From the NCBI GenBank assembly GCA_020832285.1, contig JAFIFB010000071.1:1-46511 (forward strand): DNA of 46,511 nt, written 5' to 3'. Below are positions 15,640 through 35,421 of the stretch, piece by piece. The notes under the pieces are model-generated. The model was not told the DNA's origin. It was given only the letters and a program-made list of their open reading frames with translations, and searched no databases. The DNA is from Balneolaceae bacterium (GTDB lineage Bacteria; Bacteroidota; Rhodothermia; Balneolales; Balneolaceae). The translations under genes and the position numbers were made by a program. Every line of letters starts with the position of its first letter. Position 1 is the first letter of the stretch.

Positions 15640-18600
15640 ATGAAAACAAATACAATTCTAATGAAACTGCTTGCCGGAGTGTTTTTTATTATGGCTTTTG
15701 CAGTGTTTGAACATGCCAATGCCCAGAGAGTGATTTCTGGTACGGTTACGTCAGAAGACGACGGGGAAGCTCTGACAGGAGTTAACGTTGTTATTCAGGG
15801 TACTCAGATGGGTGTCGTAACTGATTTATTTGGTGAATATGAAATTCAGATCGAAGATGACAGCCAGGTGCTGGTATTTTCTATGGTTGGATTTCAAACA
15901 TATCAAACAACTGTAGGCACCCGATCTACAATCAATGTTTCGCTGGAAGTATCCGAAGAGATGCTCGGTGAACTGGTTGTGACCGCATTTGGGTTAACGC
16001 GTGAGCGAAGATCTCTGGGTTATTCCACGACAACTGTAGGAGCTACAGCTTTGACAGAAGCCCGCGAAACGAATGTCGTTAGAAATTTACGTGGCAGGGT
16101 TGCTGGTGCTGAAATTAGTCAATCGCCTGTAGCCGGTGGTTCATCAGGTATTCTGCTCAGGGGTGTGGGTTCGATTACCGGTGATAACATGCCTTTAATT
16201 GTTGTAGATGGTGTTCCAATTGATAATTCACAAACACAATCTCCTGATGTGGGCTGGGGTGGAATTGACTACGGAGACGGTATTGGCGGCGTCAGAGCGG
16301 ATGACATTGAAGAAATTACTGTTCTGAAAGGTCCGAATGCATCGGCACTTTATGGTGCCAGGGCTTCGAATGGTGTACTGCTTATTACTACAAAAACTGG
16401 CCGGGCAAGGACGGGCATTGGAGTGGAATTTAATTCGAATGTAACTTTCGATCAGATTGGTATGAAACCCCAGTTTCAAAATCGATGGGCAAGTGGTTAC
16501 GGTATGAACTGGGATGATGCCTGGAATACGGTTACGATTGATGGTCAGACTTATTATGAGGCCACAGGAGGTACGGACAGTCACGGGCCGGAATTGGACG
16601 GAAGAATGATAGTACTGCGACACCGTCCTGATTTAGGGCCGGTTCCTGCTACTCCGCAGCCAAGAGATAATATTTATGATTTTTATAACACGGGAATCAC
16701 GGCTAACAATGCCATTGCATTTTCCGGTGGGGATCAGACAACAACGTACCGTGTTTCGTTTACTGACGAAAGAAATGAAGGTGTTGTACCCAACAGTGAA
16801 TTCAGTTCAAATTCTGTTTCATTGAGAATTACATCTAATGTAACAGACAGGTTACGGGTAGATGGACGTGCTAATTATTATCGGCATGAGGGAACTAACA
16901 GGCCCGGATTGGGTGGCCAGTTAGCACAAAATACCTTTCTTAATTTGCAGATGACAGCACGGTTTGTGGATCTGAAGTGGTTAGAAGATTATAAAGGCCC
17001 GGACGGAAGGCCAATGAATATAAGCTCCAGATACCCTTCCAACCCATATTGGATGGTAAATGAGCGGCAAAATAGTGATACACGTGATCGTGTTTACGGT
17101 TTTCTTTCAGCAAGTTTTGATATTACCGACTGGCTGAATTTAAATGTTCGTGGAGGAACAGATACCTACCTTGATCAGCGTTTCATGCGGGCAGCTCTTT
17201 ACGATCCGGGAGACCTGGATGGAAGAATTGAGAACAGGGCCTTCAGAATTCAGGAAAATAATTATGATTTTCTGTTGAATGCAATGGGGAATATTACAGA
17301 TGATTTCACAGGTTCCTTTGCGTTTGGTGGTAACTACCTTACCAGAAGCAACGAGGAGACAAGTGTTTTGGGAACACAGCTTAATATCCCCGGTTTGTAT
17401 CATATTAATAATGCAAACAGCAGATCAACGGTCTATAATTTAAGTGCAAGAGAGATGCAATCTCTCTATGCGATGGGGCAAATAGGCTATCGCGATATCC
17501 TCTATCTGGATCTCTCAGCAAGAAATGACTGGTCTTCCACATTGGGTAAAGGATACGAATCCTTCTTCTATCCTGCAGCAAGTTTGGCATTTGTAGCCAC
17601 CGATGCATTCAATATACAGTCTTCTGTACTGACGATGGCACGTTTACGGGCATCATACGCACAGACAGGAAATGATACCTTTCCCTACAGAACAAAGGCA
17701 GGCTATTTCCTGGACAGTACTGATTTTAACGGGATTAGAATGGCTGGTACACCGGGTACTATCCCGCTTGTAGATCTGAAAAACGAGCTGACCAAATCGT
17801 GGGAATTCGGAGCAGATATCGTATTGTTCAATAACAGACTATCTGTTGATGTAGCTACCTACTTTGCTTCTACATACAATCAGATCTTCAGTGTTCCGGT
17901 TTCTACAACGACTGGCTATGGAAGCCGATTGATTAATGCCGGACAGATTGACAATAAAGGTATTGAATTGACATTAGACGCAAGAATTATTCAAACTTCA
18001 AACTTTGCCTGGAATTTAGGATTTAATGCAGCCAGGAACCGCAATATGGTTGTTGAGCTCGCACCGGGTGTGGAAGCTTTCAATATAGCATCAGGCGGGC
18101 AGGTAACTGCACAGGCACGGCCGGGTCAGCCATTTGGTGATTTGTTGGGCTGGGGACCGGATTACACAGAAGACGGGCGCATGATTCTTAATGAAAACGG
18201 AACTCTGCGCAGATCGTCCGAACAGCTAATTGTAGGCAACATGCAGCCCGATTTTACCGGTGGAATTATGAACCAGGTAACCTATAAAGGTTTCTCGTTG
18301 AGTGCAGTTCTTGATTTCAGAGTGGGTGGAGATCTTGTATCCATGTCCATGCGTGAAGGCCTGATGAAAGGAGCTGGTATCCATACACAACACAGAGAGG
18401 CAGAAATGTATCATGATGGTGTGATTCCTGTCTTTAATGAAGCTGGAGATATCGTGGAATATCGGGAAAATGATCAGCCTGTGGACCCGATCGGTTTTTA
18501 TCCGGCAAGAGTCTGGGGTCAGTTTACACCCTTCTGGATTGTAAGCGGAACCTATATGAGTTTGAATGAAATGACATTAGGGTATAGCTTTTCACCCACA

Positions 18601-18804
18601 TTCCTTTCTGGCACGCCATTAACCAACCTGAGATTATCTGTGGTTGGAAGAAACCTTGGTTATCTCATCTTGGATAAAGATCTCAAGAAAATGGGAGTTC
18701 CGCCGTTGAGTTCAAATTCAAGAAGTCCTGCAGGAATGGGCTTTGAGGAGAACAACTTCCCATTATTGAGAACTATTGGTTTCAACGTAAATGTCCAGTT
18801 TTAA
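15640..18804 (+). CDS. SusC/RagA-type TonB-dependent outer-membrane transporter
   Basis: 1054 aa, full length for the family. Signal peptide to about residue 29 (HANAQ). Carboxypeptidase-regulatory-like beta domain 30-105 (VISGTVTSEDDGEALTGVNV). TonB box region ELVVTAFG, then the plug with NLRGRVAGAEI, LLRGVGSITGDNMPLIVVDG and VLKGPNASALYGARASNGV. A 22-strand barrel follows and ends in the typical aromatic residue (FNVNVQF). It forms the energised import channel for oligosaccharides too large for porins, paired with the SusD lipoprotein starting 18 bases downstream. No STN signalling domain, so no direct anti-sigma control is expected. Flanked on both sides by repeat C. Confidence 0.96.
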   Translation: MKTNTILMKLLAGVFFIMAFAVFEHANAQRVISGTVTSEDDGEALTGVNVVIQGTQMGVVTDLFGEYEIQIEDDSQVLVFSMVGFQTYQTTVGTRSTINVSLEVSEEMLGELVVTAFGLTRERRSLGYSTTTVGATALTEARETNVVRNLRGRVAGAEISQSPVAGGSSGILLRGVGSITGDNMPLIVVDGVPIDNSQTQSPDVGWGGIDYGDGIGGVRADDIEEITVLKGPNASALYGARASNGVLLITTKTGRARTGIGVEFNSNVTFDQIGMKPQFQNRWASGYGMNWDDAWNTVTIDGQTYYEATGGTDSHGPELDGRMIVLRHRPDLGPVPATPQPRDNIYDFYNTGITANNAIAFSGGDQTTTYRVSFTDERNEGVVPNSEFSSNSVSLRITSNVTDRLRVDGRANYYRHEGTNRPGLGGQLAQNTFLNLQMTARFVDLKWLEDYKGPDGRPMNISSRYPSNPYWMVNERQNSDTRDRVYGFLSASFDITDWLNLNVRGGTDTYLDQRFMRAALYDPGDLDGRIENRAFRIQENNYDFLLNAMGNITDDFTGSFAFGGNYLTRSNEETSVLGTQLNIPGLYHINNANSRSTVYNLSAREMQSLYAMGQIGYRDILYLDLSARNDWSSTLGKGYESFFYPAASLAFVATDAFNIQSSVLTMARLRASYAQTGNDTFPYRTKAGYFLDSTDFNGIRMAGTPGTIPLVDLKNELTKSWEFGADIVLFNNRLSVDVATYFASTYNQIFSVPVSTTTGYGSRLINAGQIDNKGIELTLDARIIQTSNFAWNLGFNAARNRNMVVELAPGVEAFNIASGGQVTAQARPGQPFGDLLGWGPDYTEDGRMILNENGTLRRSSEQLIVGNMQPDFTGGIMNQVTYKGFSLSAVLDFRVGGDLVSMSMREGLMKGAGIHTQHREAEMYHDGVIPVFNEAGDIVEYRENDQPVDPIGFYPARVWGQFTPFWIVSGTYMSLNEMTLGYSFSPTFLSGTPLTNLRLSVVGRNLGYLILDKDLKKMGVPPLSSNSRSPAGMGFEENNFPLLRTIGFNVNVQF

Positions 18805-18822
18805 CATAAAAGATAATATCAG

Positions 18823-20409
18823 ATGAAAAAGTTTAAATTTATAACAAGTGCACTGTTTGGGATTATGCTAATTGCATCGATCCCGGCGTGTACGGATCAT
18901 TTCGATGAACTGAACACCAGCCCGACACTGGTGGGTACTGATGTGGTAAATCCGTCTCATTTGTTTACAAGATCTGTAAGGGCCGGGGTTTACCAGGTTC
19001 CGAGTTACTCAGGTTTTGCGCGATTGATAACGGGCCATTACATCAGCCCTGCATCCGGAACGCCATTTCTTCTTTCCACTTATCCGTCTCCATTTAACAT
19101 GTATAACAATGAGATCATCGATATCTCAGAGACGATTCGTTTGACTGAAGGTGATATTTGGTATGCAAACCTTAATGCAATGTCACGGATCTGGAGGGTG
19201 TGGCTCTTTCAGCAAATAACCGATCATTATGGGGATATACCCTATTTTCAAGCCGCACTGGCACAGGACGAAACAGTTGCATTTCCTTCCTATGATACTC
19301 AGCGTGAGATCTATGTGGATATGATGGAACAATTGAGGCAGGCTGCTTCAGACCTTCAAGACTCATCTGAAAGGCTGAATGTTGGCCAGCAAGACCTCAT
19401 TTACAATGGAGATGTGGAGATGTGGAGACGTTTTGCCAATTCACTCAGATTGCGATATGCACTCCGGGTTCGATTTGCAGACGAGCAGCTTGCCACACAG
19501 CACATTTCGGAAGTAATTAACGCACCATTGATCGAGGATAACAGCCAGAATGCATACGTTATGACACTGCCTGACGGTACACAATTTAACTCGAACCGTC
19601 ACCCTGTGTTTAATGAAAATGTAAACCCTTTAAATCCTATAACATGTACCCATACAAGGGTATCTAACATGAGGGAGGCCCAATCGGAAGATCTGGATAT
19701 GGACGATCCACGCCTGTCGGTCATATGTAACCCGGCACCTTCGGATGGTCAGTACCGCGGAAGGTTTATAGGCGGAGAGGAAGGTACAGGTTGGTTCAAT
19801 GGTAATAACAATGTATCCCGGTTTGGTGAAAAGGTTTTACGGGCTGATCAGCCGATTAACCTGATGACCCATGCAGAAGTTGAGTTCAATAAGGCAGAAA
19901 TTTACCTGGCAGGATTGTCTTCGGGTGATGCGGAGGCCGCATATCGAGCGGGGCTTCGTTCTGCACTCGAATTTCCATTTTGGGAATTAGACGAGGCTGA
20001 CATTTCTGCTTTCATGGCCAGCTCTGCAGGCAGTTTGTCAGGAGATAATGAAGTCATGCTCAGAAAAATAAGTACACAACGATTTCTCTCTTTATATAAT
20101 CAAACTGCAGAAGCCTACAGTGAATTCAGAAGAACGGGATATCCTACTACCTACCTGGATGGTGCCGAAGAAGGTGTGACGGGACGTCAAATTCCCCGCA
20201 GATTTACATACCCTACATCTGAGTACGAAGTGAATACCCAAAATGTTCAGGCAGCAGCTGGCCGTTTAGGTTCAGGTGATGATTTGATGAGCAGAATCTG
20301 GTGGGATGCAAGGCCAGGTTTACCTATTGCGCATCCGCATACCGGCATCTTTCCGCCCCCGCCGGATCAGGATGTGACGCAGGAAGAATTCGAACAACAG
20401 TTCAATTAA
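18823..20409 (+). CDS. SusD/RagB-type nutrient-binding outer-membrane lipoprotein (SusD-like_2 type)
   Basis: 528 aa. SPII signal with lipobox IPAC, Cys23. DHFDELNTSPTLV right after the Cys is the usual opening of the SusD-like_2 branch. Helical TPR-like scaffold follows, including WYANLNAMSRIW, ITDHYGDIPYFQA, DLIYNGDVEMWRRFANSLRL RYALRV (one stretch), and AEVEFNKAEIYL. It forms the lid over the SusC barrel and captures glycan at the cell surface. The C-terminal DQDVTQEEFEQQFN is acidic. The ligand cannot be told from sequence. A strong terminator follows 37 bases after the stop. Confidence 0.95.
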   Translation: MKKFKFITSALFGIMLIASIPACTDHFDELNTSPTLVGTDVVNPSHLFTRSVRAGVYQVPSYSGFARLITGHYISPASGTPFLLSTYPSPFNMYNNEIIDISETIRLTEGDIWYANLNAMSRIWRVWLFQQITDHYGDIPYFQAALAQDETVAFPSYDTQREIYVDMMEQLRQAASDLQDSSERLNVGQQDLIYNGDVEMWRRFANSLRLRYALRVRFADEQLATQHISEVINAPLIEDNSQNAYVMTLPDGTQFNSNRHPVFNENVNPLNPITCTHTRVSNMREAQSEDLDMDDPRLSVICNPAPSDGQYRGRFIGGEEGTGWFNGNNNVSRFGEKVLRADQPINLMTHAEVEFNKAEIYLAGLSSGDAEAAYRAGLRSALEFPFWELDEADISAFMASSAGSLSGDNEVMLRKISTQRFLSLYNQTAEAYSEFRRTGYPTTYLDGAEEGVTGRQIPRRFTYPTSEYEVNTQNVQAAAGRLGSGDDLMSRIWWDARPGLPIAHPHTGIFPPPPDQDVTQEEFEQQFN

Positions 20410-21763: not shown

Positions 21764-23008
21764 ATGAAAAAATTATACTTTTTCCCACTGATCATTCTGT
21801 TTATCTCTTGCACATCAGAAATGAAAAATGAAGTAAACATTCATGTGGATGCTGGGGATTATGACAGATTCAATTCAGTCATTTCATTCACGGTGCCTGA
21901 TACATTACAGCACGAGGCATACCACCTGATCGACTCCGGGGGCAATCGTATTCCGCTTCAGATCGAAGATCAAAAAGCTTACTTCGTGCTTTCCGTGCTC
22001 AATGCGGGAGAGAGCATTACATTCAGAATGGTTCCGTCAGAAGAACAAGAGAACAATCCGGGAGGAGTCTCCTATCAACACCTTGAAGATGCTGTTGGAT
22101 TTTTTGTTAACGGGGACAAGCCCGTGCTCCATTACAGATCAGGTGCAGGAGGTGTGGATATGGGTGAACTTGATGATCATTTCAAACGGGGCGGCTATCT
22201 GCATCCTGTTTACAATCCCAATGGGGAAGAGATTACGGCTCATTATCATCCGGACCGACCGCATCAGAATGGCATCTGGAGCGGATGGTCAAGAACGCAG
22301 TTTGACGGAAGAAGCCCTTCATTCTGGACACCGGCATCCGGTGCCGGACTCATTGAAGCACATAGCCTGGACAAAACCTGGAGCGGACCTGTTCATGGCG
22401 GCCTTCGGGCAACACACCATTTTATTGACAAAACGGGAGACAGGGATGTAACCATTTTATCCGAAAACTGGACAGTTCGGGTTCACAATATTCTTGAAAG
22501 AGAGGAACAGCCTATCTATTTGTTCGATCTTGATTCGGAACAAGAGAATATCACAGAACATCCATTTACGATTCATGAACATGTTTATGGGGGAATCAGC
22601 TTTCGCGGGAATGATTCCTGGCTTGGTGAAGAGAACTCACGGCTGCTCACATCAGAAGGAAAAACACGAGTGGACGGTGCCCCGATACGGGATGTCTGGT
22701 CTCATATCGAAGCTCATCAATCAAGAGCAAAGTGGGCCTATCTTTCCGGAGTCGTTGATGGAGAGCATCCCGGGATTGTTATTCTGGTCCACCCCGAAAA
22801 CCTGGAATTTCCCGAACCCATTTTTATGAATTTAAGAGAGCCGTTCTTCGCATTCAGTCCGGCGGCAATGGGTGATATTACGATTGAGCCCGGTGAATCA
22901 TTGAGGTTTCAGTATCGGTACGTTCTTTTAAATAGTGATCCCGGGGCTGAATTTATCGAAAATTTGTGGCTGGATTACGCATATCCTGCAAAAGTAACTC
23001 TAAATTAA
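21764..23008 (+). CDS. DUF6807 (PmoA-like) family lipoprotein
   Basis: 414 aa. SPII signal MKKLYFFPLIILFISC with lipidated Cys16. A DUF6807 domain fills the rest: YRSGAGG, HPVYNPNGEEITAHYHPDRP followed by HQNGIWSGW, ENWTVR, HEHVYGGISFRGN, and AKWAYLSGVVDGEHPGIVIL. The family is often annotated as PmoA without evidence of methane oxidation; in Bacteroidota and Planctomycetota it sits in glycan clusters beside Gfo/Idh/MocA and 3-keto-sugar enzymes. The clustered His residues in HYHPDRPHQ look like a metal or active site. It lies 52 bases after one jelly-roll gene and seven before another, so it is in one operon. Confidence 0.84.
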   Translation: MKKLYFFPLIILFISCTSEMKNEVNIHVDAGDYDRFNSVISFTVPDTLQHEAYHLIDSGGNRIPLQIEDQKAYFVLSVLNAGESITFRMVPSEEQENNPGGVSYQHLEDAVGFFVNGDKPVLHYRSGAGGVDMGELDDHFKRGGYLHPVYNPNGEEITAHYHPDRPHQNGIWSGWSRTQFDGRSPSFWTPASGAGLIEAHSLDKTWSGPVHGGLRATHHFIDKTGDRDVTILSENWTVRVHNILEREEQPIYLFDLDSEQENITEHPFTIHEHVYGGISFRGNDSWLGEENSRLLTSEGKTRVDGAPIRDVWSHIEAHQSRAKWAYLSGVVDGEHPGIVILVHPENLEFPEPIFMNLREPFFAFSPAAMGDITIEPGESLRFQYRYVLLNSDPGAEFIENLWLDYAYPAKVTLN

Positions 23009-24037: not shown

Positions 24038-24350
24038 ACTTCAACATGAATTGTTGTGAGTAGTTATTTTTGAGGTAACTGAAATCCCCTCCCCGAGGGG
24101 TCGGGATTTCGAAAACCTCTCGAGAGGGGAAAAGTTAGTCAAAAACACGACTTGTCGTGGTTTGTTGACTGACGAGGGGTGTGTTTACTAAGCCATGAAA
24201 CAGGCTCAGAACACAGAAAATGGGCTTATACCCAGAACACACCCCTCGTTCGACAAATCAGGCTCCGCCTTTTTGTCTACACATTTCCCCTCTCGAGAGG
24301 GGACTGTATGGCCACCATTTCAATTTAACCACACCAACTCTTTTAGAACC
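24038..24350 (+). mobile_element. ISL3-ended MITE 1
   Basis: 313 bp. The left end has GAATTGTTGTGAGTAG (degenerate before this), and the right end reads on the minus strand GGTTCTAAAAGAGTTGGTGT. Nested inverted repeats: long left arm 24082-24132 (CCCCTCCCCGAGGGG...CCTCTCGAGAGGGG), a shortened right arm 24284-24303, and a perfect 13-bp pair CGAGGGGTGTGTT (24173-24185) with AACACACCCCTCG (24236-24248). A CACGAC/GTCGTG hairpin is also present. No coding content. It ends five bases before the next gene's ATG, so it supplies the leader of that gene. Confidence 0.8.
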
Positions 24351-24355
24351 GAAAA

Positions 24356-24986: not shown

Positions 24987-25679
24987 ATGATTGAGCAATC
25001 CAGAAAAAAAGAAAAAAGCACCCAAAATAAAGATAGCGGTGAGAGCAAGATTAATAGTTCCGTTTTTAAGCTCTGGAACCGAAAACTGCATATTTATGCA
25101 GGACTTTATTTTCTTCTGTTTATCTGGCTTTTTTCCATATCAGGACTCCTGCTGAATAATCCGGAGTGGACTATTTCAAATTATTGGCCAGAACGTGAAA
25201 TAACTCATTTTCAGAAAGAAATTGTTCAGCCATCCGAGAGCGGAGATCTTGAAATTGCGAAAAATTTAATGAATCAGCTTTTAATCAGGGGAGAGATTCA
25301 TGAAACCGGCTGGGGAGATTCAGAGGATGAATTTCGTTTACAAGTGCGCAGGCCCGGCCAAATGATTTCTATTGAGACGAATTTTGAAAAAAACCTTGCT
25401 GACATGACGGAGATCCGGGTAAATTCATGGGGTGTTATTCGCATGCTGCATACGTTTACGGGAGCTAAAAATCAGACAGATGAAAAACGTAACTGGATTT
25501 TGACCAAAATCTGGAGCTTTTCAATAGATGCCCTCGCTGCAGGATTAATTATCATGGTGTTCAGCGGTCTTTATATGTGGTATCTGCTGAGCCGAAAGCG
25601 AATAATGGGGATCATTTTTCTTGGCTTGGGCACTGGCTGTTGTCTGTTCTTTCTGTTTGGAATTACACTTTTTTTGTGA
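24987..25679 (+). CDS. PepSY-associated transmembrane protein (second of pair)
   Basis: 230 aa, same layout as the gene before it: charged N-terminus, helix LHIYAGLYFLLFIWLFSISG with NNPEW, periplasmic PepSY-like domain, then helices near ALAAGLIIMVFSGLYMWYLL and IIFLGLGTGCCLFFLFGITL. LHTF replaces LHEM. The two probably form a heterodimer, from adjacency and shared topology. The stop TGA is immediately followed by the stop of the convergent cytochrome gene (TGATCA, 25677-25682). Confidence 0.8.
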   Translation: MIEQSRKKEKSTQNKDSGESKINSSVFKLWNRKLHIYAGLYFLLFIWLFSISGLLLNNPEWTISNYWPEREITHFQKEIVQPSESGDLEIAKNLMNQLLIRGEIHETGWGDSEDEFRLQVRRPGQMISIETNFEKNLADMTEIRVNSWGVIRMLHTFTGAKNQTDEKRNWILTKIWSFSIDALAAGLIIMVFSGLYMWYLLSRKRIMGIIFLGLGTGCCLFFLFGITLFL

Positions 25680-28600
25680 TCAAGGGTCAAAAATCGGATT
25701 GAGTGCATTTACGGTGTTATAGATATCCTCCTGCATGGGAGTCCCGTCGGATGCCGTCAGGTTGTAAGATATTCGCATCTGCATGACAGGAACCATACCG
25801 GGGATTTCCAGGAAAATCTCCATACTGTCATCGCTTATGTTTACGGAAGTAACGTCCACTTCATCTTCACCCATCAGATCGGGATTTTCTACGGAATAAA
25901 ACTCGGAACCATATTCCCGGCTCCAGCGGTAATTCCAGCGTTGGACTTGAAAATTGGAGACATCATCAGCTGTTTCCGGGTTCAGCGGCTGGCTAAAGCG
26001 AATGCGAAGTCCATTTTCATGGGCGTGTACATCTGTGGGTAGGTATAACGGTTCGCCTGTATACCGGACTCTTTGGAACCCTTCGGGACTTAAACCCGCT
26101 ACATACAGATGCCCGTCATCAGGATGAAATCGTCCGACCCGGAGCCTTGAGCTAACCCGGCCAAGAGGGACCACCGCGCCCTGGCGATCTCCATCAACCG
26201 TTTCATACATGATTTTGTTGATTGTGCCGCGGCCGTAGGAGAGGTGCAGCATCTGTCCGCGGGGCAAGCCCCAACTATCCGAATCCACCCAGACCTGACC
26301 ACCACCCGAGTTGTCGATATTTCTTGGCAGCCATAAAATTGGCGGTTCATAACCAATTTCACGCGGATAAGGATCTTCGGTGCGGAACTGGCCTGGCTGG
26401 TATCCGTAAAAACTGCCTTTTCGGGTTTCCGGATCGATTATATGTACCGGGGTTTGGGGAACCCAGGTTCCTTCCTGCTGCGAAACCGTAACAAGCCCAT
26501 CCGGACTGATGCCCATGCCAAACGGCTGACGAAAACCGCTGGCTATCAGATCCATCCGGGATCCATCTGCTGATACACGGATGACTCCGTTTCTATAATC
26601 CGAAAGTCGGCTGCCCCTTCCTCTTACAAAATAGAAGTTGCCTTCACTGTCAGCCTCCAGGCCAAAAGCCTGGTTCCAGCCTCCCGCTCCGGGAGTGATC
26701 AGGTTTTGGAAGTTTTCATAAAAGTCGGCTTCACCATTGCCATTCCGGTCGTGCAGAATCGTCAGTTCGTCTTCGTTCGAGACGTAGATCTTTCCATCTA
26801 CTACTTTTACGCCAAAAGGCATATTCAAACCTGTGGCAAATCGCTGCCAGGTAATTTGTTCCAGCGAGTCATTCAAACCATCCACAAGCCACACGTCGCC
26901 GTGGATGGTAGACAGTACCGCACGCCCGTCTTCCATGAAATCAAGACCGGTAAAATGCAGCAATGCGTCATAGGGATTTTCCACAGGAGCCGTGATTTTA
27001 TCTGCGATGTAGGCAGTGTCGTTTTCTCCGATTTCTCCGCGGGTAACGAGTGGTTCACCCCAAAGTGGCGGGCCAGGATCGGTCAGGCTTCTTACATCAT
27101 CGGGAGTTCCGTTTGCAGAAGCCAGTTCCAGAAAAGAAGTCTCATCGGCAGCATTACCGTTCCAGATCAGCACCCGCACCGTTCGTTCTTCATCGTGTGG
27201 TTCAAGTTGCAGCGCTACATGTCCCTCTTCGGTTACTGCAAGTTCAGCGGCATTTTCACCGGGCAAGGCAGCGACTGTAATATTCCCGTTTTGTCCAGAC
27301 CGGGCTGTTTGCAGGATGCTCTGACTTTGAATTTGTACAGGTTCATCTTCACTATCGAAAAGAAGAACGGCAAGGGGCTGATCGTGGCTCCCGATCTTCA
27401 GGTCACGGACAAAGGCCCCTGTTTGTGAATGTTCAACATACCAGGGCGATTCCAGAACAGATACTCCGCTTACTGTATAGGAGAGCACCACACGGTTGCC
27501 GTGAAGATAGATCCCTTCATAACGGCCATGTTCTTCCGGAATGGGGCCAAAAGGTTCTTCACGAATGTCGGTAAAATTAAGCGGATTGCCGGCGATGTTC
27601 CATCCACTCACGGCAGGGTTTAAAAATTTCATCACTCCCCCCGCTGCCGGCGGCCTGCTGTTTCTTGTTCCCCAATCGTGGTTGGATCGAAAATTCAGGA
27701 AATCACCGCTCCATCCGGCGCTCATACGAAGCAGATCCTGATCGAAATGAACAGCCGCTTGCTGCTGGTCACCCACGCGGATGGCCAATCCTTTTGGTTC
27801 TGGGTTGCCTTCGGGTACTTCCATGGCTCTTGAGAAAAACGGGCCGGTATCCATCTGCCGGTATAACTCATCCCAGCGTGTGACAACACTTTCGGCATCA
27901 GGGTCCCGCTGACTTAAGCGGTTTTCAACAAAGAAGTGCCAGATCGCTTCAAATTGCACCTCGGCGATTCCGTCAACTGTATCGCGAAGGCGTGTGCGAC
28001 CGTCTCTCAGGCTTCCGAATTGAGGCATGGCCGAAAGAGAATCAACCCGGGAGGGGGTCCACATTTTCCAGTAAAAATATTCGGGGCGAAGCCTGTCCCC
28101 AAACTGGTACATATCCAGGTCTTCTCGTCCGCCATGACAGAAATTACATCCGAACCCACCGCCAATATCTGTCGAAAGGCGTCTCCCGATAGCAATCATT
28201 TCGGGGTCGGGCCGGATATGGCGAAAATTCACACCGTCAAATCCGTGGGATTCAATCATACCGCGTGCCAGCAGATCCGGTTTTGCCCCGGTAGCCGGCA
28301 TTCGGGCGTCCATCCAGGGACGGGCTTCAAATTCAAGTGAACCTGCCAATAGATTTCCGAACCACTCCGGTTGGAGTTTTTCACCGGTCCAGGTAAGAGG
28401 CGGGCGTTCCATCAAAGTTTGGTCTTCCGAATCCACATCAGCCGGCTCTTCTTCATCTGTGAGCATACTCCACCGATCGGCCTGGCCATCGATGACATGG
28501 CACGCCCGGCAATCAAGTTCCATGACCTGACGGGCTGCAAATTCAATCGGGGTGAACCGCTTCAGTGATTCAGCACCTTCGGCGGCAAAAGCTTTCAAAG

Positions 28601-30002
28601 CATCAATGTCACTTTGGCTTAAAGCCGGATAGGATGGATGATTTCCGCTGCCTGCTTCATTTCCCAGCCAACCCCGCTGCCAGTCATCTGCCAAAATGGT
28701 TTCCCATGAAGGCGATTCCAGCAGATTCTCCGCTGGCATGGCGTGACAGCTTGCGCATCCGTGTATCTGCACCAAACGTTCACCCTTGTGGATATCGCCG
28801 CTTATTGATTCCGGGGCCGCTTCAGAGTCGGCAGCGGAGATCAAAAAAGCCGTGATGGCAGCCGCTTCTTCTTCATCCAGGTGGAAATCGGGCATTCGTG
28901 TCCAGCGATAATGACGTGCCGGTTCACCAAGAAACTCAGCAAGAGCCGGCGGGTACCATTTGCCGGCAATACCGGCGAGGCTTAGCCGCTCCTCATCGTT
29001 ATTGTTTGCATCGAGTGTGTGGCAGGCAATGCAACCCAGTGATGTATAAAGTCGTTCTCCTGTGCTGATGAGGCCAGGGCCTTCCTGGAATGATGATTCT
29101 GTTTCGTCAGGAGGCTCACCGAGGGTTGACAGCCATGCAGCAATATCAGCAGCCTCTTGTGGCGTAAAATCCATGTGGGGCATGGTTGCAGAAGGGCGCA
29201 GCGAATGCGGGTTTTCCATCCATTGCTTCATCCAACCGGCGCGAAGACGGCTGCCAACTTCGCTTAGATCAGGTGCGTCACGTTTGAGTTCGGGCATCTT
29301 ATTTCCGTCAAAAAAAGCAGGATCTTCAGGTGAGTGGCATTTCAGGCATGAATAGCGGGTTATAAGTTCCCGTCCGCGTCTTAATTGATTACTGTTGGCA
29401 AGTGCTTCTTCCGTCCCGTTGTGGCTGAGGGCTTTGGGCGGTAAAGGTTCGGGAATAAATAGAGAACCCGACCATAACAGGCGCACCCGGGCCGGTCCTG
29501 ATTCCGAGCTCTGATATCTTAATTGCAGTTCATAGAAACCTTTTCCAAGCCGCACTGGTTCGCTTTCTGCAGAACCGCTGGCTTGTAGAATATTTTCACC
29601 TCCCAGTTTGAGCTCAGCCCGGCCGGTGCCTTCGAAATAGAACTGGTACTCATCTTCTTCGGCAACGTGGAGAACACCTTCCCATTCGGCCTCAAACGGT
29701 CCGGGGTCAAGAAACGGGGTAGGGGAAGCGTCTGCCTCAACAAAAAGTGCAGCAAGGCGGGAAGTTCTTACATCAGATTGTGTTAAGCCCGGGCGGGTGA
29801 AGCGTACCAATAAGCCCGGTTGTTTTGATTCGGGGTTCAGATGGGTGGCCGGAACGATATTATATTCAGATGATTCGAAGTCCTGAAAGAATAAAAACCA
29901 GGCTGATATAGCCACTACCATCAAAACCGGTCCTGCCAGGATGCCTGCAATGATGCGGGCACGACTTTTCTTTGTTTTCTCCGGCGGAAGTTTATCGTTC
30001 AT
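25680..30002 (-). CDS. PA14 / five-haem cytochrome c / beta-propeller protein, membrane-anchored (paralogue 1)
   Basis: 1440 aa. N-terminal membrane helix (17-40), PA14 domain about 60-190, then CXXCH sites CLKCH (219-223), CIACH (324-328), CASCH (416-420), CRACH (498-502) and CNFCH (619-623). Candidate distal Met ligands lie in TMPHMD (273-278), RMPDFH (369-374) and RMPATG (567-572). Next a beta-sandwich of DUF6797 type (about 715-985) with PFGPIPEEHGRYEGIY, and a propeller about 1005-1310 with HGDVWLVDG and MPFGVKVVDGKIYVSNEDE, as in soluble sugar dehydrogenases and PVC-type proteins. An Ig-like tail follows. PA14 could bind carbohydrate, the propeller oxidise it, and the haems take the electrons; that role is inferred. 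It diverges from a paralogue at 30633. Confidence 0.85.
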   Translation of the reverse strand: MNDKLPPEKTKKSRARIIAGILAGPVLMVVAISAWFLFFQDFESSEYNIVPATHLNPESKQPGLLVRFTRPGLTQSDVRTSRLAALFVEADASPTPFLDPGPFEAEWEGVLHVAEEDEYQFYFEGTGRAELKLGGENILQASGSAESEPVRLGKGFYELQLRYQSSESGPARVRLLWSGSLFIPEPLPPKALSHNGTEEALANSNQLRRGRELITRYSCLKCHSPEDPAFFDGNKMPELKRDAPDLSEVGSRLRAGWMKQWMENPHSLRPSATMPHMDFTPQEAADIAAWLSTLGEPPDETESSFQEGPGLISTGERLYTSLGCIACHTLDANNNDEERLSLAGIAGKWYPPALAEFLGEPARHYRWTRMPDFHLDEEEAAAITAFLISAADSEAAPESISGDIHKGERLVQIHGCASCHAMPAENLLESPSWETILADDWQRGWLGNEAGSGNHPSYPALSQSDIDALKAFAAEGAESLKRFTPIEFAARQVMELDCRACHVIDGQADRWSMLTDEEEPADVDSEDQTLMERPPLTWTGEKLQPEWFGNLLAGSLEFEARPWMDARMPATGAKPDLLARGMIESHGFDGVNFRHIRPDPEMIAIGRRLSTDIGGGFGCNFCHGGREDLDMYQFGDRLRPEYFYWKMWTPSRVDSLSAMPQFGSLRDGRTRLRDTVDGIAEVQFEAIWHFFVENRLSQRDPDAESVVTRWDELYRQMDTGPFFSRAMEVPEGNPEPKGLAIRVGDQQQAAVHFDQDLLRMSAGWSGDFLNFRSNHDWGTRNSRPPAAGGVMKFLNPAVSGWNIAGNPLNFTDIREEPFGPIPEEHGRYEGIYLHGNRVVLSYTVSGVSVLESPWYVEHSQTGAFVRDLKIGSHDQPLAVLLFDSEDEPVQIQSQSILQTARSGQNGNITVAALPGENAAELAVTEEGHVALQLEPHDEERTVRVLIWNGNAADETSFLELASANGTPDDVRSLTDPGPPLWGEPLVTRGEIGENDTAYIADKITAPVENPYDALLHFTGLDFMEDGRAVLSTIHGDVWLVDGLNDSLEQITWQRFATGLNMPFGVKVVDGKIYVSNEDELTILHDRNGNGEADFYENFQNLITPGAGGWNQAFGLEADSEGNFYFVRGRGSRLSDYRNGVIRVSADGSRMDLIASGFRQPFGMGISPDGLVTVSQQEGTWVPQTPVHIIDPETRKGSFYGYQPGQFRTEDPYPREIGYEPPILWLPRNIDNSGGGQVWVDSDSWGLPRGQMLHLSYGRGTINKIMYETVDGDRQGAVVPLGRVSSRLRVGRFHPDDGHLYVAGLSPEGFQRVRYTGEPLYLPTDVHAHENGLRIRFSQPLNPETADDVSNFQVQRWNYRWSREYGSEFYSVENPDLMGEDEVDVTSVNISDDSMEIFLEIPGMVPVMQMRISYNLTASDGTPMQEDIYNTVNALNPIFDP

Positions 30003-30141
30003 ATTCCAAGTTGGTTTTATTCAATCAGAAAAACTGCCAACATCTCAACCTGCTCTAAATAAAATGATTTTCCGGTTGTGATAATGCAACCGATGAAAAA
30101 AAGAAAATCAAATACTAAATAAACTAAAAAAAACCGAAAAT

Positions 30142-30193
30142 GAAACTTAAAAAAGTTTATTTGCTTTGGAAAAGAAACCAAAAGAAATTATAA
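30142..30193 (+). promoter_or_regulatory. Candidate control motif cluster between the two cytochrome genes
   Basis: Contains GAAACTTAAAA (30142-30152), TTTATTTGCTT (30156-30166) and AAAAGAAATTATAA (30180-30193), the same three words found upstream of SusC, in a different order. Position suggests a shared regulator or promoter type. AT-rich words carry some risk of chance match. Confidence 0.33.
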
Positions 30194-30213
30194 TGGATTT
30201 AGATAGAAGATAA

Positions 30214-30538
30214 GGTGCTACAGGAATTGTTTTGGGTAGTTATTCTTGAGATATCTGGAATCTCCTCTTGAGAGGGGAAAAGTTAGTCAAAAACACGACT
30301 TGTCTTGATTTGTTGACTGACGAGGGGTGTGTTTACGAAGCCATGAAACGGGATCAGGACATAGAAAATGTGCCTACACCCAGAACACACCCCTCGTTCG
30401 ACAAATCATCCGTCGGCTGACGGATATTTGTCTTCACATTTCCCCTCTCAAGTTGAGAGGTTTTCGAAATCCCGACCCCTCGGGGAGGGGACTGTACGGC
30501 CACCATTTCAAATTACCAACAACAATTCCTGTAGAACC
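30214..30538 (+). mobile_element. ISL3-ended MITE 2
   Basis: 325 bp. Left end GGTGCTACAGGAATTGTTTT, right end (minus strand) GGTTCTACAGGAATTGTTGT. Flanks GAAGATAA (30206-30213) and GAAATTAA (30539-30546) match at six of eight bases, a possible decayed target duplication. It has a short left arm (30261-30280) and a long right arm (about 30439-30491), the mirror of MITE 1. The internal CGAGGGGTGTGTT/AACACACCCCTCG pair is conserved. Confidence 0.85.
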
Positions 30539-30632
30539 GAAATTAATAAGCTTATACAAGCTTAGTGATGGACAGTTAGTGTGCAAATAGAAATATAAGT
30601 TCGGAGTTTCGGATGTGTAAATACAAGGAAAT

Positions 30633-33600
30633 ATGAAGGATAGGAAAAAATATGTCTCTCTCATTATTATTTTCTGTTTTGCTTTAACAGCTCTTACAAT
30701 TTGGTACATAAAAAATAAAAATGAAGGATCGTCCGGAAGTAATGATCTGAATCTGACCGGCCAATTTGAGCATGAGATACCAAATCAGGGAGTGCTTGTT
30801 CAGTTTTCACAAACTCACTCAGAACAGAACGATTTTCGCACATCACGGCTTTTAGCTTTATACGTGGATTCTGGTGAACCACCCACTCCGTTTTTCGAGC
30901 CGGGACCATTTCAGGCGGAATTTAGCGGATGGATCGAAATTACTGAAGAATCAGAATACAGATTCCATTTTGAAGGAACCGGGCAATTAGAGTTGCATTT
31001 TGATGGGAAGACTCTGTTGCGTTCAGAAGATGAAGTCAGAGTGAGTGAAGCAATACTCCTGTCAGAAGGAAGTTACTTTTTAAGTGCAACGTATGTCAGT
31101 CCTGAAGATGAATCGGCACAGATGAGGCTTCTCTGGTCAGGCCGCTCATTTGGCCCGGAAACCATTCCCCCGACTGCACTGCGTTATGATGAATCGGATG
31201 AACAACTGCAGAAAGCCTCAAGAATACGTCATGGCCGCTATCTGGTGGCAGAAAATTACTGTATAAGTTGCCATCAACCAGAAGATCCGGCCTATTTTGA
31301 CAGGGCCGTGATGCCCGAATTGAAAAAAGATGCTCAATCTCTTGTAGGTGCAGGCAGTAATCTCCGGGCTGGCTGGCTGAAAAATTGGATAGCGAATCCT
31401 GATGCAGCCTATCTTTCATCACGGTTGCATAATTGGAGCCTGGACGATCAGCAGGCGGCAGATATTGCTTTATTTCTTACGGATATTGGTGAACCATCTC
31501 CTACTCTGGCAGATGATACCCCGGCTGTTATTAAGAGAGGCGGAGAGTTGTTTGCAATGCTGGGATGTGTGGCGTGCCATACATTGAGTGAAAAACCTGA
31601 AGACGATGATCGACTGGCTCTGAAAAATATTGCTGATAAATGGTTTCCGGCTTCCCTTGTAAACTACCTGAAAGCACCGGGAAGTAAAAATGTGTGGACG
31701 GAAATGCCTGATTTTCACCTCAGCGATGAGGAAGCACATGCAATTGTTTCTTTTTTATTTGATCAAAGTAGTTTGGGTTCAGATGAACAGATTGAAGGAG
31801 ATATAGGCAGAGGCAGGTCTCTTGTGCAGCAGATGGGATGTGTTAGTTGTCATGCTGGTCCTGCAGAGAATGAGTTGTCGGCATCCTCTTTGGAATCATT
31901 ATTAACATCGGATTGGCAGCAAGTATTTTTGACTGAAAATGATACTTCCGCATTTCCTCATCCGGAGCTTACAACCGAAGAAGTTGAAGCCTTGATTGCA
32001 TTTGCAGATCAGGGATTTGAATCATTACAACGCAGTAGTCCGATAGAATTTGCAGGAAGGCAGATTGAGTCAATGAACTGCCAGGAATGCCACTCGATGG
32101 ATGGCAGACAGGCTAAACTGGCGTTGTTTGCCTCTGAGGTTGAACATCTTCTTGAAGATGCGGAAAGGAATCCTTTTGGAGACAAAATTCCGTCGCTCAC
32201 ATGGGTTGGTGAACAGTTGCAGCCGGAGTGGCTTGAGAGTGTCCTGGCCGGAACCCTGGAGCATCCGGCACGGCCCTGGCTGGATGCCAGAATGCCTGCA
32301 GTTGGTGCAGAGCCATCGCTTTTTGCGAAAGGATTAATGGCGACGCATGGTTTCAGTCCGGATTATGAACCTGTCGAGCCCGACCCTGAACTTACACGTC
32401 ATGGACGCGCGCTGGCTATAGGTATCGGTTTTCTTGGGTGCGATTCCTGTCATCACGGGGGCGAAGCCGGCGGGATGCCTGCTCCTCATCTGGGTTTACT
32501 TGCAGATAGATTGCGCCCTGAATTTTACCACTGGATGTTGCAATCTCCGCGCAGAGTAGACCCGCAAACGGCCATGCCGGAATATGTGAATGAAGAGGGC
32601 ATGACATGGCAAAGAGAGCGATTCGATGGCATTGCCGAAAAACAGTTTGAAGCGATATGGCATTATCTTGTTGAAAATCGCGGGAACTTTGGTCTGTTAG
32701 ATGATACTGTAGCAGGCGGACCCGGAACACCCTATGCAGAGATGTATCAACAAATGGACAAAGGGCCATTTTTTTCGGGAGTGATTGAAATACCCGGAGC
32801 AGGTGAACAGCCTAAAGGATTATCTATTCGAGTGGGTGATGGGCGGCAGGCAACGATCCATTTTGATCACGATTTGCTCAGAATGGGGGCTGCCTGGACA
32901 GGAGAATATCTGGAGTTCCGAAATGATGGAGACTGGGGTATACGAACCAGCCAGCCACCTTTGGCAGTAGGCAATGTCCGGTTTGTGAACAGGGATGTGG
33001 GAGGATGGAGCTTACAAAATGAGTTTGAGGATAGTCGTGAGATGCCCTTTGGCCCTGTCCCTGAAAGTGATGGCCGCTACAATGGAGTCTATATTCATGA
33101 CAATCGGGTTGTGCTTTCCTACCACCTTTATGGATCGGATATTCTTGAATCACCCTGGTTTGAAGAAAATAACCAAACAGGTGCATTTATTCGTGATTTT
33201 CAGGTTGGCCCGAATCAGCAATCACTTTCTGTTTTGCTTTTTGATGGTGAAGACGGACTGGAAACAGATTCCAGGGGATCGTTTGAGGTCATCAGGACAG
33301 AAAAAAACGGAAGAGTAAAAATTGCGGCAGTCCAAAGACAAGGCGGGATTGAACTGTTTACATCAGACCAACAGGCAGCTCTTCGGTTTGATCCGCAAAA
33401 TAACTCTCGCACAGTACGTGTACTGCTTTGGGAAGGGGGTGCAGATGAAGAAAATGATTTTTTTGCACTGGCAGCAGACCATCAGGATCCGGATGATATA
33501 AACCGGTTCACTGAACCCGGTTCCGGTTTGTGGGATCCGCTGATCACAACAGGTGAGCTGGGGGAGACTGATGGGCCTTATGCCGTGGATATCGTTACAT

Positions 33601-34928
33601 TTCCCCTGGAGAACCCGTACGATGTGTTTTTCCATTTGACGGGTGTGGATTTTATGGATGACGGGCGGGCGTTGATAACAACCATGCACGGCGATGTCTG
33701 GCTTGTGGACGGTCTTGATGATTCACTGGAACAAATTACCTGGCAGCGATTTGCTACTGGTTTGAATATGCCGTTTGGTGTTAGAGTAGTTGATGGAAAA
33801 ATCTATGTCTCCAACGAAGATGAACTGACGATTCTGCATGACCGGAACGGTAACGGGCAGGCCGATTATTATGAAAACTTCCGAAATCTGATCGCACCGG
33901 GACGTGGTGCATGGCGCCAAGCGTTTGGCCTTGAAGTGGATGCTGAAGGAAATTTTTATTTTGCACGAGGCAGAGGGCACCGGCAAATCGAAGATGCAAA
34001 TGGCGTCTTTCGGGTTTCACCGGATGGAAAAGAGATGGAAAGAATCGCGGTAGGATTCCGACAGCCCTGGACCATGGGAATCAGCCCTTCCGGACGGGTT
34101 ACGGTTACTCAGCAGGAGGGGCCCTGGGTACCACAGACGCCCGTTCATAAAATTGACCTGGAAACCAGAAAAGGGAATTTTTACGGAGATATGAACACGT
34201 ACCCAGTGGAGAATTATCCAAGGGAGCTTGGTTTTGAACCTCCAATTCTTTGGTTGCCTCGTCATATTGACAGTTCGGCCGGTGGACAGGTTTGGGTGGA
34301 TTCAGACAGATGGGGCCTGCCCAGGGATCAGATGCTTCATCTCTCCTGGGGCAGAAGCTCGTTAATGCAGCTTATGCATGAGCAGGTGGATGGCGACCGG
34401 CAGGGCGGGGTAGTGCCCATTGTTTCATTTACTGGTATCCGGCCAAGAACCGGCAGGTTCAACCCGGTGGATGGTCAGCTATATGTTGCCGGATTTGAAA
34501 ATCAGGGTTTTCAGCGGGTTCGTTACACTGGAATTAATGTTAACATGCCTGTGGCGATACAGGCTTATGAAAATGGAATTTGGTTGCAATTCAGTGATCC
34601 GCTGAATCCCGAGAGTGCTGGTGATGTCAGCAGATATACTGTTCATCGGTGGAACTATATCTGGCAGGAATATTACGGTTCTCACCATTATTCGGTTGAA
34701 AATCCGGATCGCTTCGGTGAGGATATTGTTCCGATAGAGTCCGTAACAGTTCTGAATAACGGGATGGAAATTTTCCTGGAAATCCCTGGCATGATACCCG
34801 TTCATCAGATGCGAATTTCATACGATATTGAAGCGGCAGACGGCACGCAGCTGGAAAAGAGTATCTACAACACAGTACACAACCTGAGACCGGCATTCAG
34901 GCACGATGGACAGGTTTCATTGGAATAG
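30633..34928 (+). CDS. PA14 / five-haem cytochrome c / beta-propeller protein, membrane-anchored (paralogue 2)
   Basis: 1431 aa, same architecture as 25680-30002: N-terminal helix (7-26), PA14 about 50-185, CXXCH at CISCH (210-214), CVACH (312-316), CVSCH (403-407), CQECH (483-487), CDSCH (603-607), DUF6797-like sandwich, propeller and Ig-like tail. Propeller blades are nearly identical between the two (HGDVWLVDG, SLEQITWQRFATGLNMPFGV), while the PA14 and cytochrome parts differ much more. The TMPHMD segment that should give the distal ligand of haem 1 is here SRLHNWSL, without Met. MPDFH (haem 2) and RMPAVG are kept. It starts 95 bases after MITE 2. Confidence 0.85.
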   Translation: MKDRKKYVSLIIIFCFALTALTIWYIKNKNEGSSGSNDLNLTGQFEHEIPNQGVLVQFSQTHSEQNDFRTSRLLALYVDSGEPPTPFFEPGPFQAEFSGWIEITEESEYRFHFEGTGQLELHFDGKTLLRSEDEVRVSEAILLSEGSYFLSATYVSPEDESAQMRLLWSGRSFGPETIPPTALRYDESDEQLQKASRIRHGRYLVAENYCISCHQPEDPAYFDRAVMPELKKDAQSLVGAGSNLRAGWLKNWIANPDAAYLSSRLHNWSLDDQQAADIALFLTDIGEPSPTLADDTPAVIKRGGELFAMLGCVACHTLSEKPEDDDRLALKNIADKWFPASLVNYLKAPGSKNVWTEMPDFHLSDEEAHAIVSFLFDQSSLGSDEQIEGDIGRGRSLVQQMGCVSCHAGPAENELSASSLESLLTSDWQQVFLTENDTSAFPHPELTTEEVEALIAFADQGFESLQRSSPIEFAGRQIESMNCQECHSMDGRQAKLALFASEVEHLLEDAERNPFGDKIPSLTWVGEQLQPEWLESVLAGTLEHPARPWLDARMPAVGAEPSLFAKGLMATHGFSPDYEPVEPDPELTRHGRALAIGIGFLGCDSCHHGGEAGGMPAPHLGLLADRLRPEFYHWMLQSPRRVDPQTAMPEYVNEEGMTWQRERFDGIAEKQFEAIWHYLVENRGNFGLLDDTVAGGPGTPYAEMYQQMDKGPFFSGVIEIPGAGEQPKGLSIRVGDGRQATIHFDHDLLRMGAAWTGEYLEFRNDGDWGIRTSQPPLAVGNVRFVNRDVGGWSLQNEFEDSREMPFGPVPESDGRYNGVYIHDNRVVLSYHLYGSDILESPWFEENNQTGAFIRDFQVGPNQQSLSVLLFDGEDGLETDSRGSFEVIRTEKNGRVKIAAVQRQGGIELFTSDQQAALRFDPQNNSRTVRVLLWEGGADEENDFFALAADHQDPDDINRFTEPGSGLWDPLITTGELGETDGPYAVDIVTFPLENPYDVFFHLTGVDFMDDGRALITTMHGDVWLVDGLDDSLEQITWQRFATGLNMPFGVRVVDGKIYVSNEDELTILHDRNGNGQADYYENFRNLIAPGRGAWRQAFGLEVDAEGNFYFARGRGHRQIEDANGVFRVSPDGKEMERIAVGFRQPWTMGISPSGRVTVTQQEGPWVPQTPVHKIDLETRKGNFYGDMNTYPVENYPRELGFEPPILWLPRHIDSSAGGQVWVDSDRWGLPRDQMLHLSWGRSSLMQLMHEQVDGDRQGGVVPIVSFTGIRPRTGRFNPVDGQLYVAGFENQGFQRVRYTGINVNMPVAIQAYENGIWLQFSDPLNPESAGDVSRYTVHRWNYIWQEYYGSHHYSVENPDRFGEDIVPIESVTVLNNGMEIFLEIPGMIPVHQMRISYDIEAADGTQLEKSIYNTVHNLRPAFRHDGQVSLE

Positions 34929-35077: not shown

Positions 35078-35421
35078 GGTTATACAGGAATTGTTGTGAG
35101 TAGATATTTTTGAGATACTGAAATATCCTCCACGAGGGGTGTGTTTGCCAAGCCCTGTAAGGGCGCCATAACACAGCCCAGGGCACAGTGAGCAATGCGA
35201 ACGACGCCCTGGGATAAAATGTAACATAAAAAAACCCCGAGGCGAGTTGTTTTGTAAAAGCAGTAAACAGTTTCGAGGGGTAGTCGTGGGAACCCGAAAA
35301 GGAAAACCGTGGCGGGATTGATGTGATGCAAGAGGGAAGCCGCCCCGTATAGGTCTGGACTGGCAAGATGGGACTGCAGGGGCTGTAAAATCAATTTACC
35401 CACAACAATTCCTGTAGAGCC
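35078..35421. mobile_element. ISL3-ended MITE 3 carrying a REP-like interior
   Basis: 344 bp. Left end GGTTATACAGGAATTGTTGT, right end (minus strand) GGCTCTACAGGAATTGTTGT. TTTTTCT lies directly outside both ends (35071-35077 and 35422-35428), a likely target-site duplication. The interior starts like MITE 1 and 2 (ACGAGGGGTGTGTTTGCCAA, 35132-35151) but the rest is repeat D (35171-35360), also found at 45566-45770. Confidence 0.87.
35171..35360 (+). repeat. Repeat D, copy 1 (REP-like hairpin unit)
   Basis: Hairpin GCCCAGGGC (35176-35184) with GCCCTGGG (35206-35213), loop ACAGTGAGCAATGCGAACGA-type. Then ACCCCGAG...TTTCGAGGGGT, GTCGTGGGAACCCG and GGCGGGATTGATG, all matched in copy 2. The style resembles REP units mobilised by RAYT-type transposases in Bacteroidota, which is a guess. 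No such transposase is in the window. Confidence 0.75.

Follow-up and report, generated by a model that had tools for sequence, protein, structure and literature searches.

The question raised by this locus is what two giant haem-binding proteins, A and B, do in a Balneolaceae bacterium (GenBank assembly GCA_020832285.1, contig JAFIFB010000071.1), where they are encoded within the stretch of 46,511 nucleotides that was analysed as a whole, referred to here as the window. An original prediction, made by reading the window by eye, described each protein as a union of a PA14 domain, five CXXCH haem sites, a DUF6797-like domain and a dehydrogenase-like propeller, and proposed that together with two PepSY membrane proteins, ApbE and three Gfo/Idh/MocA enzymes they form an undescribed periplasmic system that oxidises glycan fragments and feeds the electrons to haem and flavin carriers. 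The best-supported new point of this study is that the PA14-haem half and the DUF6797-propeller half form a two-part unit that is found in other phyla, both as split genes and as fusions in either order. For A and B themselves, an even chance is given to the explanation that they are a quinohaemoprotein-like electron-transfer unit of a polysaccharide locus that has diverged at its catalytic site.

A and B are paralogues encoded by divergent genes and share 51–52% identity over almost their full length (Table 1). Their closest named relatives are Balneolaceae metagenome-assembled genomes labelled 'CSSed'. The domain composition first read by eye was confirmed by profile and fold matches. In Pfam searches, cytochrome c domains and DUF6797 (PF20601, 76.7 bits in B) exceed the gathering cut-offs in both proteins, DUF7133 does so in B only, and PA14 (PF07691) stays below its cut-off of 24 bits in both (19.6 bits in B); the relative L080 reaches 24.9 bits. 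The PA14 assignment is supported by a profile of the PA14-haem family, which matches the PA14 domain of RsgI3 (PDB 6qe7) with an E value of 7.8e-19, and by the predicted fold. Using alignments of relatives, A was folded as two halves, with a mean predicted local distance difference test (pLDDT) score of 82.7 for the PA14-haem half and 87.0 for the DUF6797-propeller half. The predicted PA14 domain of A matches 6qdi (Foldseek E 1.8e-6) and also 6xac, and sugar-bound PA14 structures are among its matches.

Each protein has a single hydrophobic stretch near its N terminus, in windows beginning at about residue 16 (A) and residue 5 (B). Since this stretch is present and no lipobox was seen in either protein on inspection by eye, A and B probably have an inner-membrane anchor and are exposed to the periplasm. 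Exactly five CXXCH sites occur in each (residues 210, 312, 403, 483 and 603 in B), and five are retained in all five Balneolaceae proteins of this type. Over 21 aligned sequences, four of the sites are present in 21/21 and the second in 18/21. Methionine is invariant at positions 512 and 603 of the N-terminal half and nearly so at 314 (18/21) and 218 (16/21), which makes these residues plausible haem ligands. With five CXXCH sites, cytochrome c domains and a hydrophobic stretch from which export is predicted, both proteins have the features of multi-haem c-type cytochromes, and the host genome encodes cytochrome c assembly proteins.

A collection of 84,980 species genomes was scanned with the PA14-haem half alone by means of two short peptide patterns, so that the propeller half was not selected for. 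Of the 31 loci obtained, three are from Balneolaceae with the order of A and B, three are cut at contig ends (L074, L085, L098) and 25 are testable. At all 25 a unit composed of DUF6797, propeller and C-terminal domain adjoins the PA14-haem unit or shares its open reading frame (ORF). These split or reversed forms come from Verrucomicrobiota, Planctomycetota, Acidobacteriota and Omnitrophota. The propeller gene is separate and upstream at 16 loci (L071, L072, L075, L077, L078, L079, L086, L087, L089–L096) and downstream, in the order found in A, at one locus from Omnitrophota (L076). A single ORF in reversed order is present at seven loci (L073, L080–L083, L088, L097), and one further locus has the reversed order in a broken frame (L084). 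The PA14-haem partner mostly carries five haem sites, and four in L081–L083, L088 and L097. In Acidobacteriota L089–L096 it is short, with two sites rather than five.

Many of these loci are near-copies (ten from Acidobacteriota and five of the reversed fusions fall into tight groups), and they were therefore counted as about eight lineages in a tree. The 'reversed' label changes three times in this tree, possibly as a single gain plus two losses, and the Balneolaceae fusion arises once, on one fully supported branch. The propeller tree carries a warning of meeting long branches, which include the Balneolaceae fusions and the group with a C-terminal single haem, so their place as sisters is unsure. 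The occurrence of the two halves as neighbours or as fusions in both orders is strong evidence of joint function, and supports the view that they act as one functional unit in which the propeller is linked with a chain of haems; the original prediction is upheld in this respect, in its broad notion that propeller and haems are coupled. A and B may have been made by fusing a PA14-multi-haem c-type cytochrome with a DUF6797-propeller-C-terminal protein, the two being products of neighbouring genes in other phyla.

The converse was seen when relatives were found via the propeller half in the phylum of the host: 26 of 27 propeller proteins (L006–L008, L033, L042–L064) carry a c-type haem site in their ORF, which lies at the N-terminal end in 20 and at the C-terminal end in six. 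Two architectures may be added. The ORF L080:5402-11896 encodes 2164 aa comprising ThuA, a laminin-G-like domain, DUF6797, propeller, PA14 and five haem sites. The host genome also encodes a further DUF6797 protein, its third (L033:7726-11205, contig 70), in which ThuA, DUF6797 and propeller are joined to a single cytochrome c domain, and its neighbours, judged by eye, are SusC-, SusD- and sulfatase-like proteins and another CxxCH propeller protein.

The modelled propeller of A is of the six-bladed type found in sGDH, Asd and AA12 enzymes. Its six best VIA matches are pyrroloquinoline quinone (PQQ) or glucose dehydrogenases with Z scores of 25.6–26.8, 2ism aligning over 275 residues at 2.6 Å. 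These are followed by AA12 dehydrogenases (24.2–24.7), a Diels-Alderase (24.4), and lactonase and NHL propellers (22–24). Alignment by hhalign to five GSDH proteins of the host genome gave a probability of 98.0% with L071 as the leading sequence, compared to 97.4% with A. The propeller half has no PDB sequence match at E 0.01, and neither A nor B has a Pfam match to GSDH at E 0.1.

A conserved histidine of the family aligns with a GSDH histidine, by profile alignment and with no coordinate check, which from its motif we take to be His144 of sGDH. In PMC6881789, His144 is given as the catalytic residue, equivalent to His363 of the fungal enzyme CcPDH, and the PQQ-contacting arginine is Arg430 of CcPDH, conserved in sGDH. 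Within a sample of 57 propellers, which omits L065–L067 and weaker or unfetched matches, the histidine is present in 44: all 17 split genes, all eight reversed forms, 17 of 20 proteins with an N-terminal single haem, one of six with a C-terminal single haem, L042, and none of the five Balneolaceae fusions. The PQQ-contacting arginine (Arg1158, in a column assigned from hhalign) occurs in 57/57. For 30 of the 57 propellers, which were obtained through the PA14-haem scan or lie in the window, the link to haem does not count as independent evidence where the propeller half is concerned. Judged by its sequences, the family looks like a sugar-dehydrogenase family of which A and B are changed members. 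The one propeller protein found via the propeller half with no haem site, L042 (778 aa; locus L099, genome G386), has none in the surrounding 19.5 kb either and keeps the histidine. Other branches that lack the histidine are L043–L047 and L006–L008, with arginine in five and glutamine in three. This natural variation among histidine, arginine, glutamine and tryptophan at one position allows active and changed forms to be compared.

Several results weigh against a quinohaemoprotein-like role for A and B. Tryptophan stands at the position of the catalytic histidine in A, B and three relatives, that is, in all five Balneolaceae members, and it is therefore doubtful that the propellers of A and B catalyse oxidation. 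An arginine column, 1289, is valine or threonine in the same five and arginine or lysine in 52/52 others, and the asparagine that follows the PQQ-contacting arginine of GSDH is unmatched in the aligned family sequences. The gene pqqC was not found in the host genome (5.33 Mb, 99% complete), in a search that was also silent in control genomes; Asd of E. coli uses external PQQ. The best Z score of the propeller (26.8) is only about 3 above those of lactonase, Diels-Alderase and NHL propellers (up to 24.4). The scan for relatives relied on two short peptide patterns, and relatives without them are unseen. Lastly, the neighbourhoods are mixed: when the loci were thinned against near-copies to 16 of 31, with 87 neighbour ORFs (five of 92 dropped at contig edges), there were three Gfo/Idh/MocA, two sulfatase, two GSDH, one ThuA and many housekeeping proteins, and no family stands out.

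With the catalytic histidine lost, A and B most likely carry out an altered reaction, or do no more than bind and pass electrons on, in the acidic-polysaccharide locus of this strain; the wider family probably oxidises a sugar. The PA14 domain would hold a glycan fragment, the propeller would meet the substrate or a redox partner, and electrons would travel along the five haems to the membrane. The stronger statement, that the wider family consists of undescribed multi-haem quinohaemoprotein sugar dehydrogenases in at least five phyla, with the A/B branch altered from histidine to tryptophan and performing a different and possibly PQQ-free reaction, is tentative. The periplasmic glycan-oxidising system of the original prediction is in this way retained in part, as to the coupling of propeller and haems and the glycan setting, and placed in doubt as to oxidation by A and B. 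The loss of both the histidine and the basic residue at 1289 in all five Balneolaceae members would also suit binding or sensing proteins in which a dead-enzyme propeller holds a glycan and the haems act in redox sensing or as a simple relay, and the presence of PA14, a binding domain, and the duplication into A and B agree with such a role. It is nevertheless unlikely, as the five CXXCH sites kept in all five proteins would be costly for a mere binder and neither A nor B showed a signalling domain.

The arrangement of A and B as a divergent pair around a MITE (miniature inverted-repeat transposable element), beside two PepSY proteins, was verified, with one 325-bp MITE-like element between the genes. 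The family PF16357, to which both PepSY proteins belong, was sought in 25 genomes: the host, a relative designated G017, and 23 taken from the 31 further genomes matching A. The host and G017 each have two matches, all at the PepSY-A-B locus. Single matches in G016 (below cut-off), G181 and G237 lie on another contig or about 165 kb away, the remaining genomes are without a match, and none of the 23 other genomes has PF16357 near a DUF6797-propeller gene. A third Balneolaceae genome with A- and B-type proteins, G430, for which no completeness is given, has no match. A profile of our own, built from four PepSY sequences, which is narrow and was not relied on, gave no match at E 1 across 50 neighbourhood loci. 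The co-occurrence on which the original prediction had staked its PepSY link is accordingly not seen, and a PepSY partnership is rejected as a rule of the family beyond the two syntenic genomes. As the pair is present at the locus in the host and G017 but absent from G430, it is conserved with A and B and not required for them.

Three readings of the PepSY pair were considered. PepSY-like proteins are described as transmembrane electron carriers in PMC8238504 and PMC11334425, and with the hydrophobic anchors of A and B, and the four genes adjacent and syntenic in two genomes, it could be supposed, along the lines of the original prediction, that A and B work as sugar dehydrogenases, oxidising fragments of glycan and passing the electrons to two PepSY b-type cytochromes. 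The tryptophan at the catalytic position speaks against this, as does the absence of PF16357 from G430 and from the vicinity of the propeller genes in the 23 other genomes, and it is judged quite improbable. Least probable of all is an outward flow, in which the PepSY proteins reduce A and B and the haems feed an extracytoplasmic reductase or metal reduction; a link of PepSY-like proteins to iron reduction appears in PMC8238504, but no partner reductase was seen in the window and the same absence of PF16357 near the family applies. A better prospect, if still short of even, is that the pair is unrelated cargo of the locus, supplying for example iron or copper to cytochromes, which is compatible with A and B as a diverged electron-transfer unit. 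The pair occurs in only two of the three genomes that have A and B, and a 2026 paper reportedly ties a PepSY_TM protein to haem-copper oxidases (PMC13038864); set against this, the pair has the same flanking genes in G017, at distances of 56 and 0 bp, and its members are the sole two PF16357 matches in each of the two genomes.

The flavin carriers fared no better. The flavin-attachment motif [ST]GA[ST] is absent from all 24 ORFs of the window that were examined, no search for a partner having been made in the rest of the genome, and no DUF2271 or FMN-binding domain is listed for the scanned window proteins. A 242-aa protein at 11863–12591 that resembles DUF2271 by eye was rejected, with no Pfam match at E 0.1. 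ApbE and the three Gfo/Idh/MocA enzymes are present in the window as originally noted, although some 15 kb separate ApbE from the PepSY genes. Compared to the PepSY-like flavinylation systems, as set out in PMC8238504, the locus shares PF16357 membrane proteins and ApbE in the window and differs in that distance and in lacking the domains and motif named above. The proposed PepSY and flavin pathway is weak.

In design, the system that A and B most resemble by analogy is fungal CcPDH, a quinohaemoprotein composed of an AA8 cytochrome, an AA12 PQQ propeller and a CBM1 module according to PMC4332668. Both designs unite a cytochrome and a carbohydrate-binding domain with a six-bladed propeller of the sugar-dehydrogenase type in a single protein, and the CcPDH propeller fold (6jt5) matches that of A with a Z score of 23.0, near the other AA12 enzymes. 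CcPDH has one b-type haem and a catalytic histidine, whereas A and B have five c-type sites and tryptophan, and add DUF6797 and the C-terminal domain. Asd and sGDH (Pfam GSDH) share with the family the propeller fold, the PQQ-contacting arginine and, in the 44 members noted, the catalytic-histidine position; A and B differ from them by the tryptophan, the fused haem sites, PA14 and the lack of a GSDH match. PVC-type haem-binding CxxCH proteins (TIGR02604/TIGR02603, DUF7133) also pair a propeller with c-type haem, but have HEAT repeats and one haem site in place of DUF6797 and five, and A and B score only 21.2 and 29.8 bits for TIGR02604 (cut-off 122.2).

The planctomycete-specific cytochrome domains PSCyt and PSD have Pfam models, and neither is listed for A or B at E 0.1. 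The proteins that carry them resemble A and B in joining a cytochrome to a carbohydrate-binding module (PA14 included), and a role in carbohydrate metabolism was proposed for them in PMC5615132. The word 'undescribed' in the original prediction is for this reason only partly right: in that 2017 source, a link between cytochromes and carbohydrate-binding domains in Planctomycetes-Verrucomicrobia-Chlamydiae (PVC) bacteria had been proposed with other domain sets. Literature searches found no paper on DUF6797, none on 'PVC-type heme-binding CxxCH' or on PepSY with polysaccharide utilization locus and cytochrome, and none combining two of PA14 domain, multiheme and glucose sorbosone dehydrogenase. 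A testable function is hereby offered for DUF6797 and the PA14-haem proteins of uncultured members of Planctomycetota, Verrucomicrobiota and Acidobacteriota and of relatives of the Bacteroidota. If it is correct, these bacteria would oxidise sugars outside the cytoplasm through a built-in multi-haem wire, and the unit would be the bacterial equivalent of the PQQ pyranose dehydrogenase of fungi.

Table 1. Features of the window (coordinates in nucleotides from its first letter).
Feature	Position	Strand	Evidence or remark
CehA/McbA-type metallohydrolase	4149-6422	+	
SusC/SusD pair of polysaccharide locus	15640..20409	+	SusC TIGR04056 576 bits; SusD-like_2 244.6 bits
DUF6807 protein	21764..23008	+	Pfam 163.8 bits
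Repeat related to the MITE-like element, upstream of PepSY pair	24044..24354	.	gap 332 bp here, 56 bp in G017
PepSY_TM_like_2 protein 1 (PepSY1), 208 aa	24356..24982	+	PF16357 44.8 bits, cut-off 27; His20, His43, His136
PepSY_TM_like_2 protein 2 (PepSY2), 230 aa, converging on A	24987..25679	+	PF16357 40.4 bits, cut-off 27; His35, His155
Protein A, 1440 aa: hydrophobic anchor, PA14, five c-haem sites, DUF6797, propeller, C-terminal domain	25680..30002	-	
A, C-terminal beta domain	25683..26042	-	conserved across family
A, predicted propeller, nearest PQQ aldose dehydrogenases	26055..27029	-	VIA Z 26.8 to 2ism and 3a9g; hhalign 97.4%
A, Trp1109, at PQQ-dehydrogenase catalytic His position	26676..26678	-	alignment with GSDH His
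A, DUF6797 beta-rich domain	27048..27842	-	Pfam 88 bits, cut-off 24.9
A, five-haem region	27843..29414	-	CXXCH at residues 219, 324, 416, 498, 619
A, PA14 domain (about residues 57-196)	29415..29834	-	Pfam 23.1 bits, under cut-off; fold and family-profile matches
MITE-like element between A and B, 325 bp	30214..30538	.	28-nt terminal inverted repeats, 86% complementary
Protein B, 1431 aa, paralogue of A with identical domain order	30633..34928	+	
Ends of related repeat, B to Gfo/Idh/MocA gene	35083..35421	.	gap 596 bp here, 220 bp in G017
PVC-type CxxCH protein	41995-45411		DUF7133 and TIGR02603 over cut-off; TIGR02604 109.3 bits, just under 122.2

The glycan setting of the original prediction is real at the Balneolaceae locus. 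In addition to the genes of Table 1, the window encodes a DUF4962-heparinase-like lyase, a CN hydrolase, the three Gfo/Idh/MocA proteins and ApbE, and four of its proteins have a weak similarity to PL14, all below cut-off. Given this gene content, the window is likely to hold an acidic-polysaccharide locus.

A and B are rare. Among 58 relatives (the host included) both were found only in the host and G017. Thirty-two of 394 genomes of the phylum, again with the host, match A at E 1e-30, and among the matches listed only those of the host genome reach the PA14-haem half. In G430 (contigs L069 and L070) there is one A-type and one B-type protein, L070 grouping with B with full support and L069 with A (92/59), so both copies are retained in three genomes. 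No A was found within 7.9 kb upstream of B in G430, and the divergent layout is therefore not general. The order PL14-like, DUF6807, PL14-like, PepSY1, PepSY2, A, B is preserved in G017, where B spans two contigs with overlapping protein ends, and in both genomes B is followed by Gfo/Idh/MocA and beta-helix genes.

The gaps around the PepSY-A-B block (332, 630 and 596 bp) all contain MITE-family repeats. The gap between A and B is 630 bp in the window compared to 280 bp in G017, from which the element is absent; this is the only gap for which the empty insertion site was aligned. When positions 30205–30545 were used as a query, the genome yielded 59 match rows, a count that includes the self-match and rows that overlap. 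Another repeat of the family lies at 6983–7042.

A set of 20 loci from the same phylum gave 104 neighbour ORFs (one of 105 dropped at a contig edge). Counted over the first 25 families, these include five ThuA, four DUF7133, four copper-binding, four sulfatase and three DUF6807 proteins. As a control, 99 ORFs from elsewhere in 15 of those genomes include three sulfatases; the 25 families listed for it, of which the lowest count is 2, do not include ThuA, DUF7133, copper-binding or DUF6807. The recurrence of ThuA, DUF7133 and DUF6807 beside same-phylum relatives is only suggestive because of small numbers, naive ORF calls, tables of the first 25 families and kin loci. ThuA is common in the host genome (14 matches), so its nearness means little by itself, and all three DUF6807 cases, in which the gene adjoins DUF6797-propeller genes (L100, L102 and L103, from three genomes), belong to one family. 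Gfo/Idh/MocA relatives lie near the two-half unit at 12 of the 31 loci (L071, L073, L077, L084, L089–L096), representing about four lineages, for which there is no control in these phyla; such genes are common there.

Two further observations concern the setting. A CehA/McbA-type relative lies about 2 kb from DUF6797-propeller genes in two genomes of one genus (G409 and G350; loci L111 and L116). In the window, a 136-aa protein on the minus strand (7334–7744) adjoins ApbE; its sole Pfam match is a TonB-receptor plug domain, and it may be a remnant or else a small plug protein in its own right.

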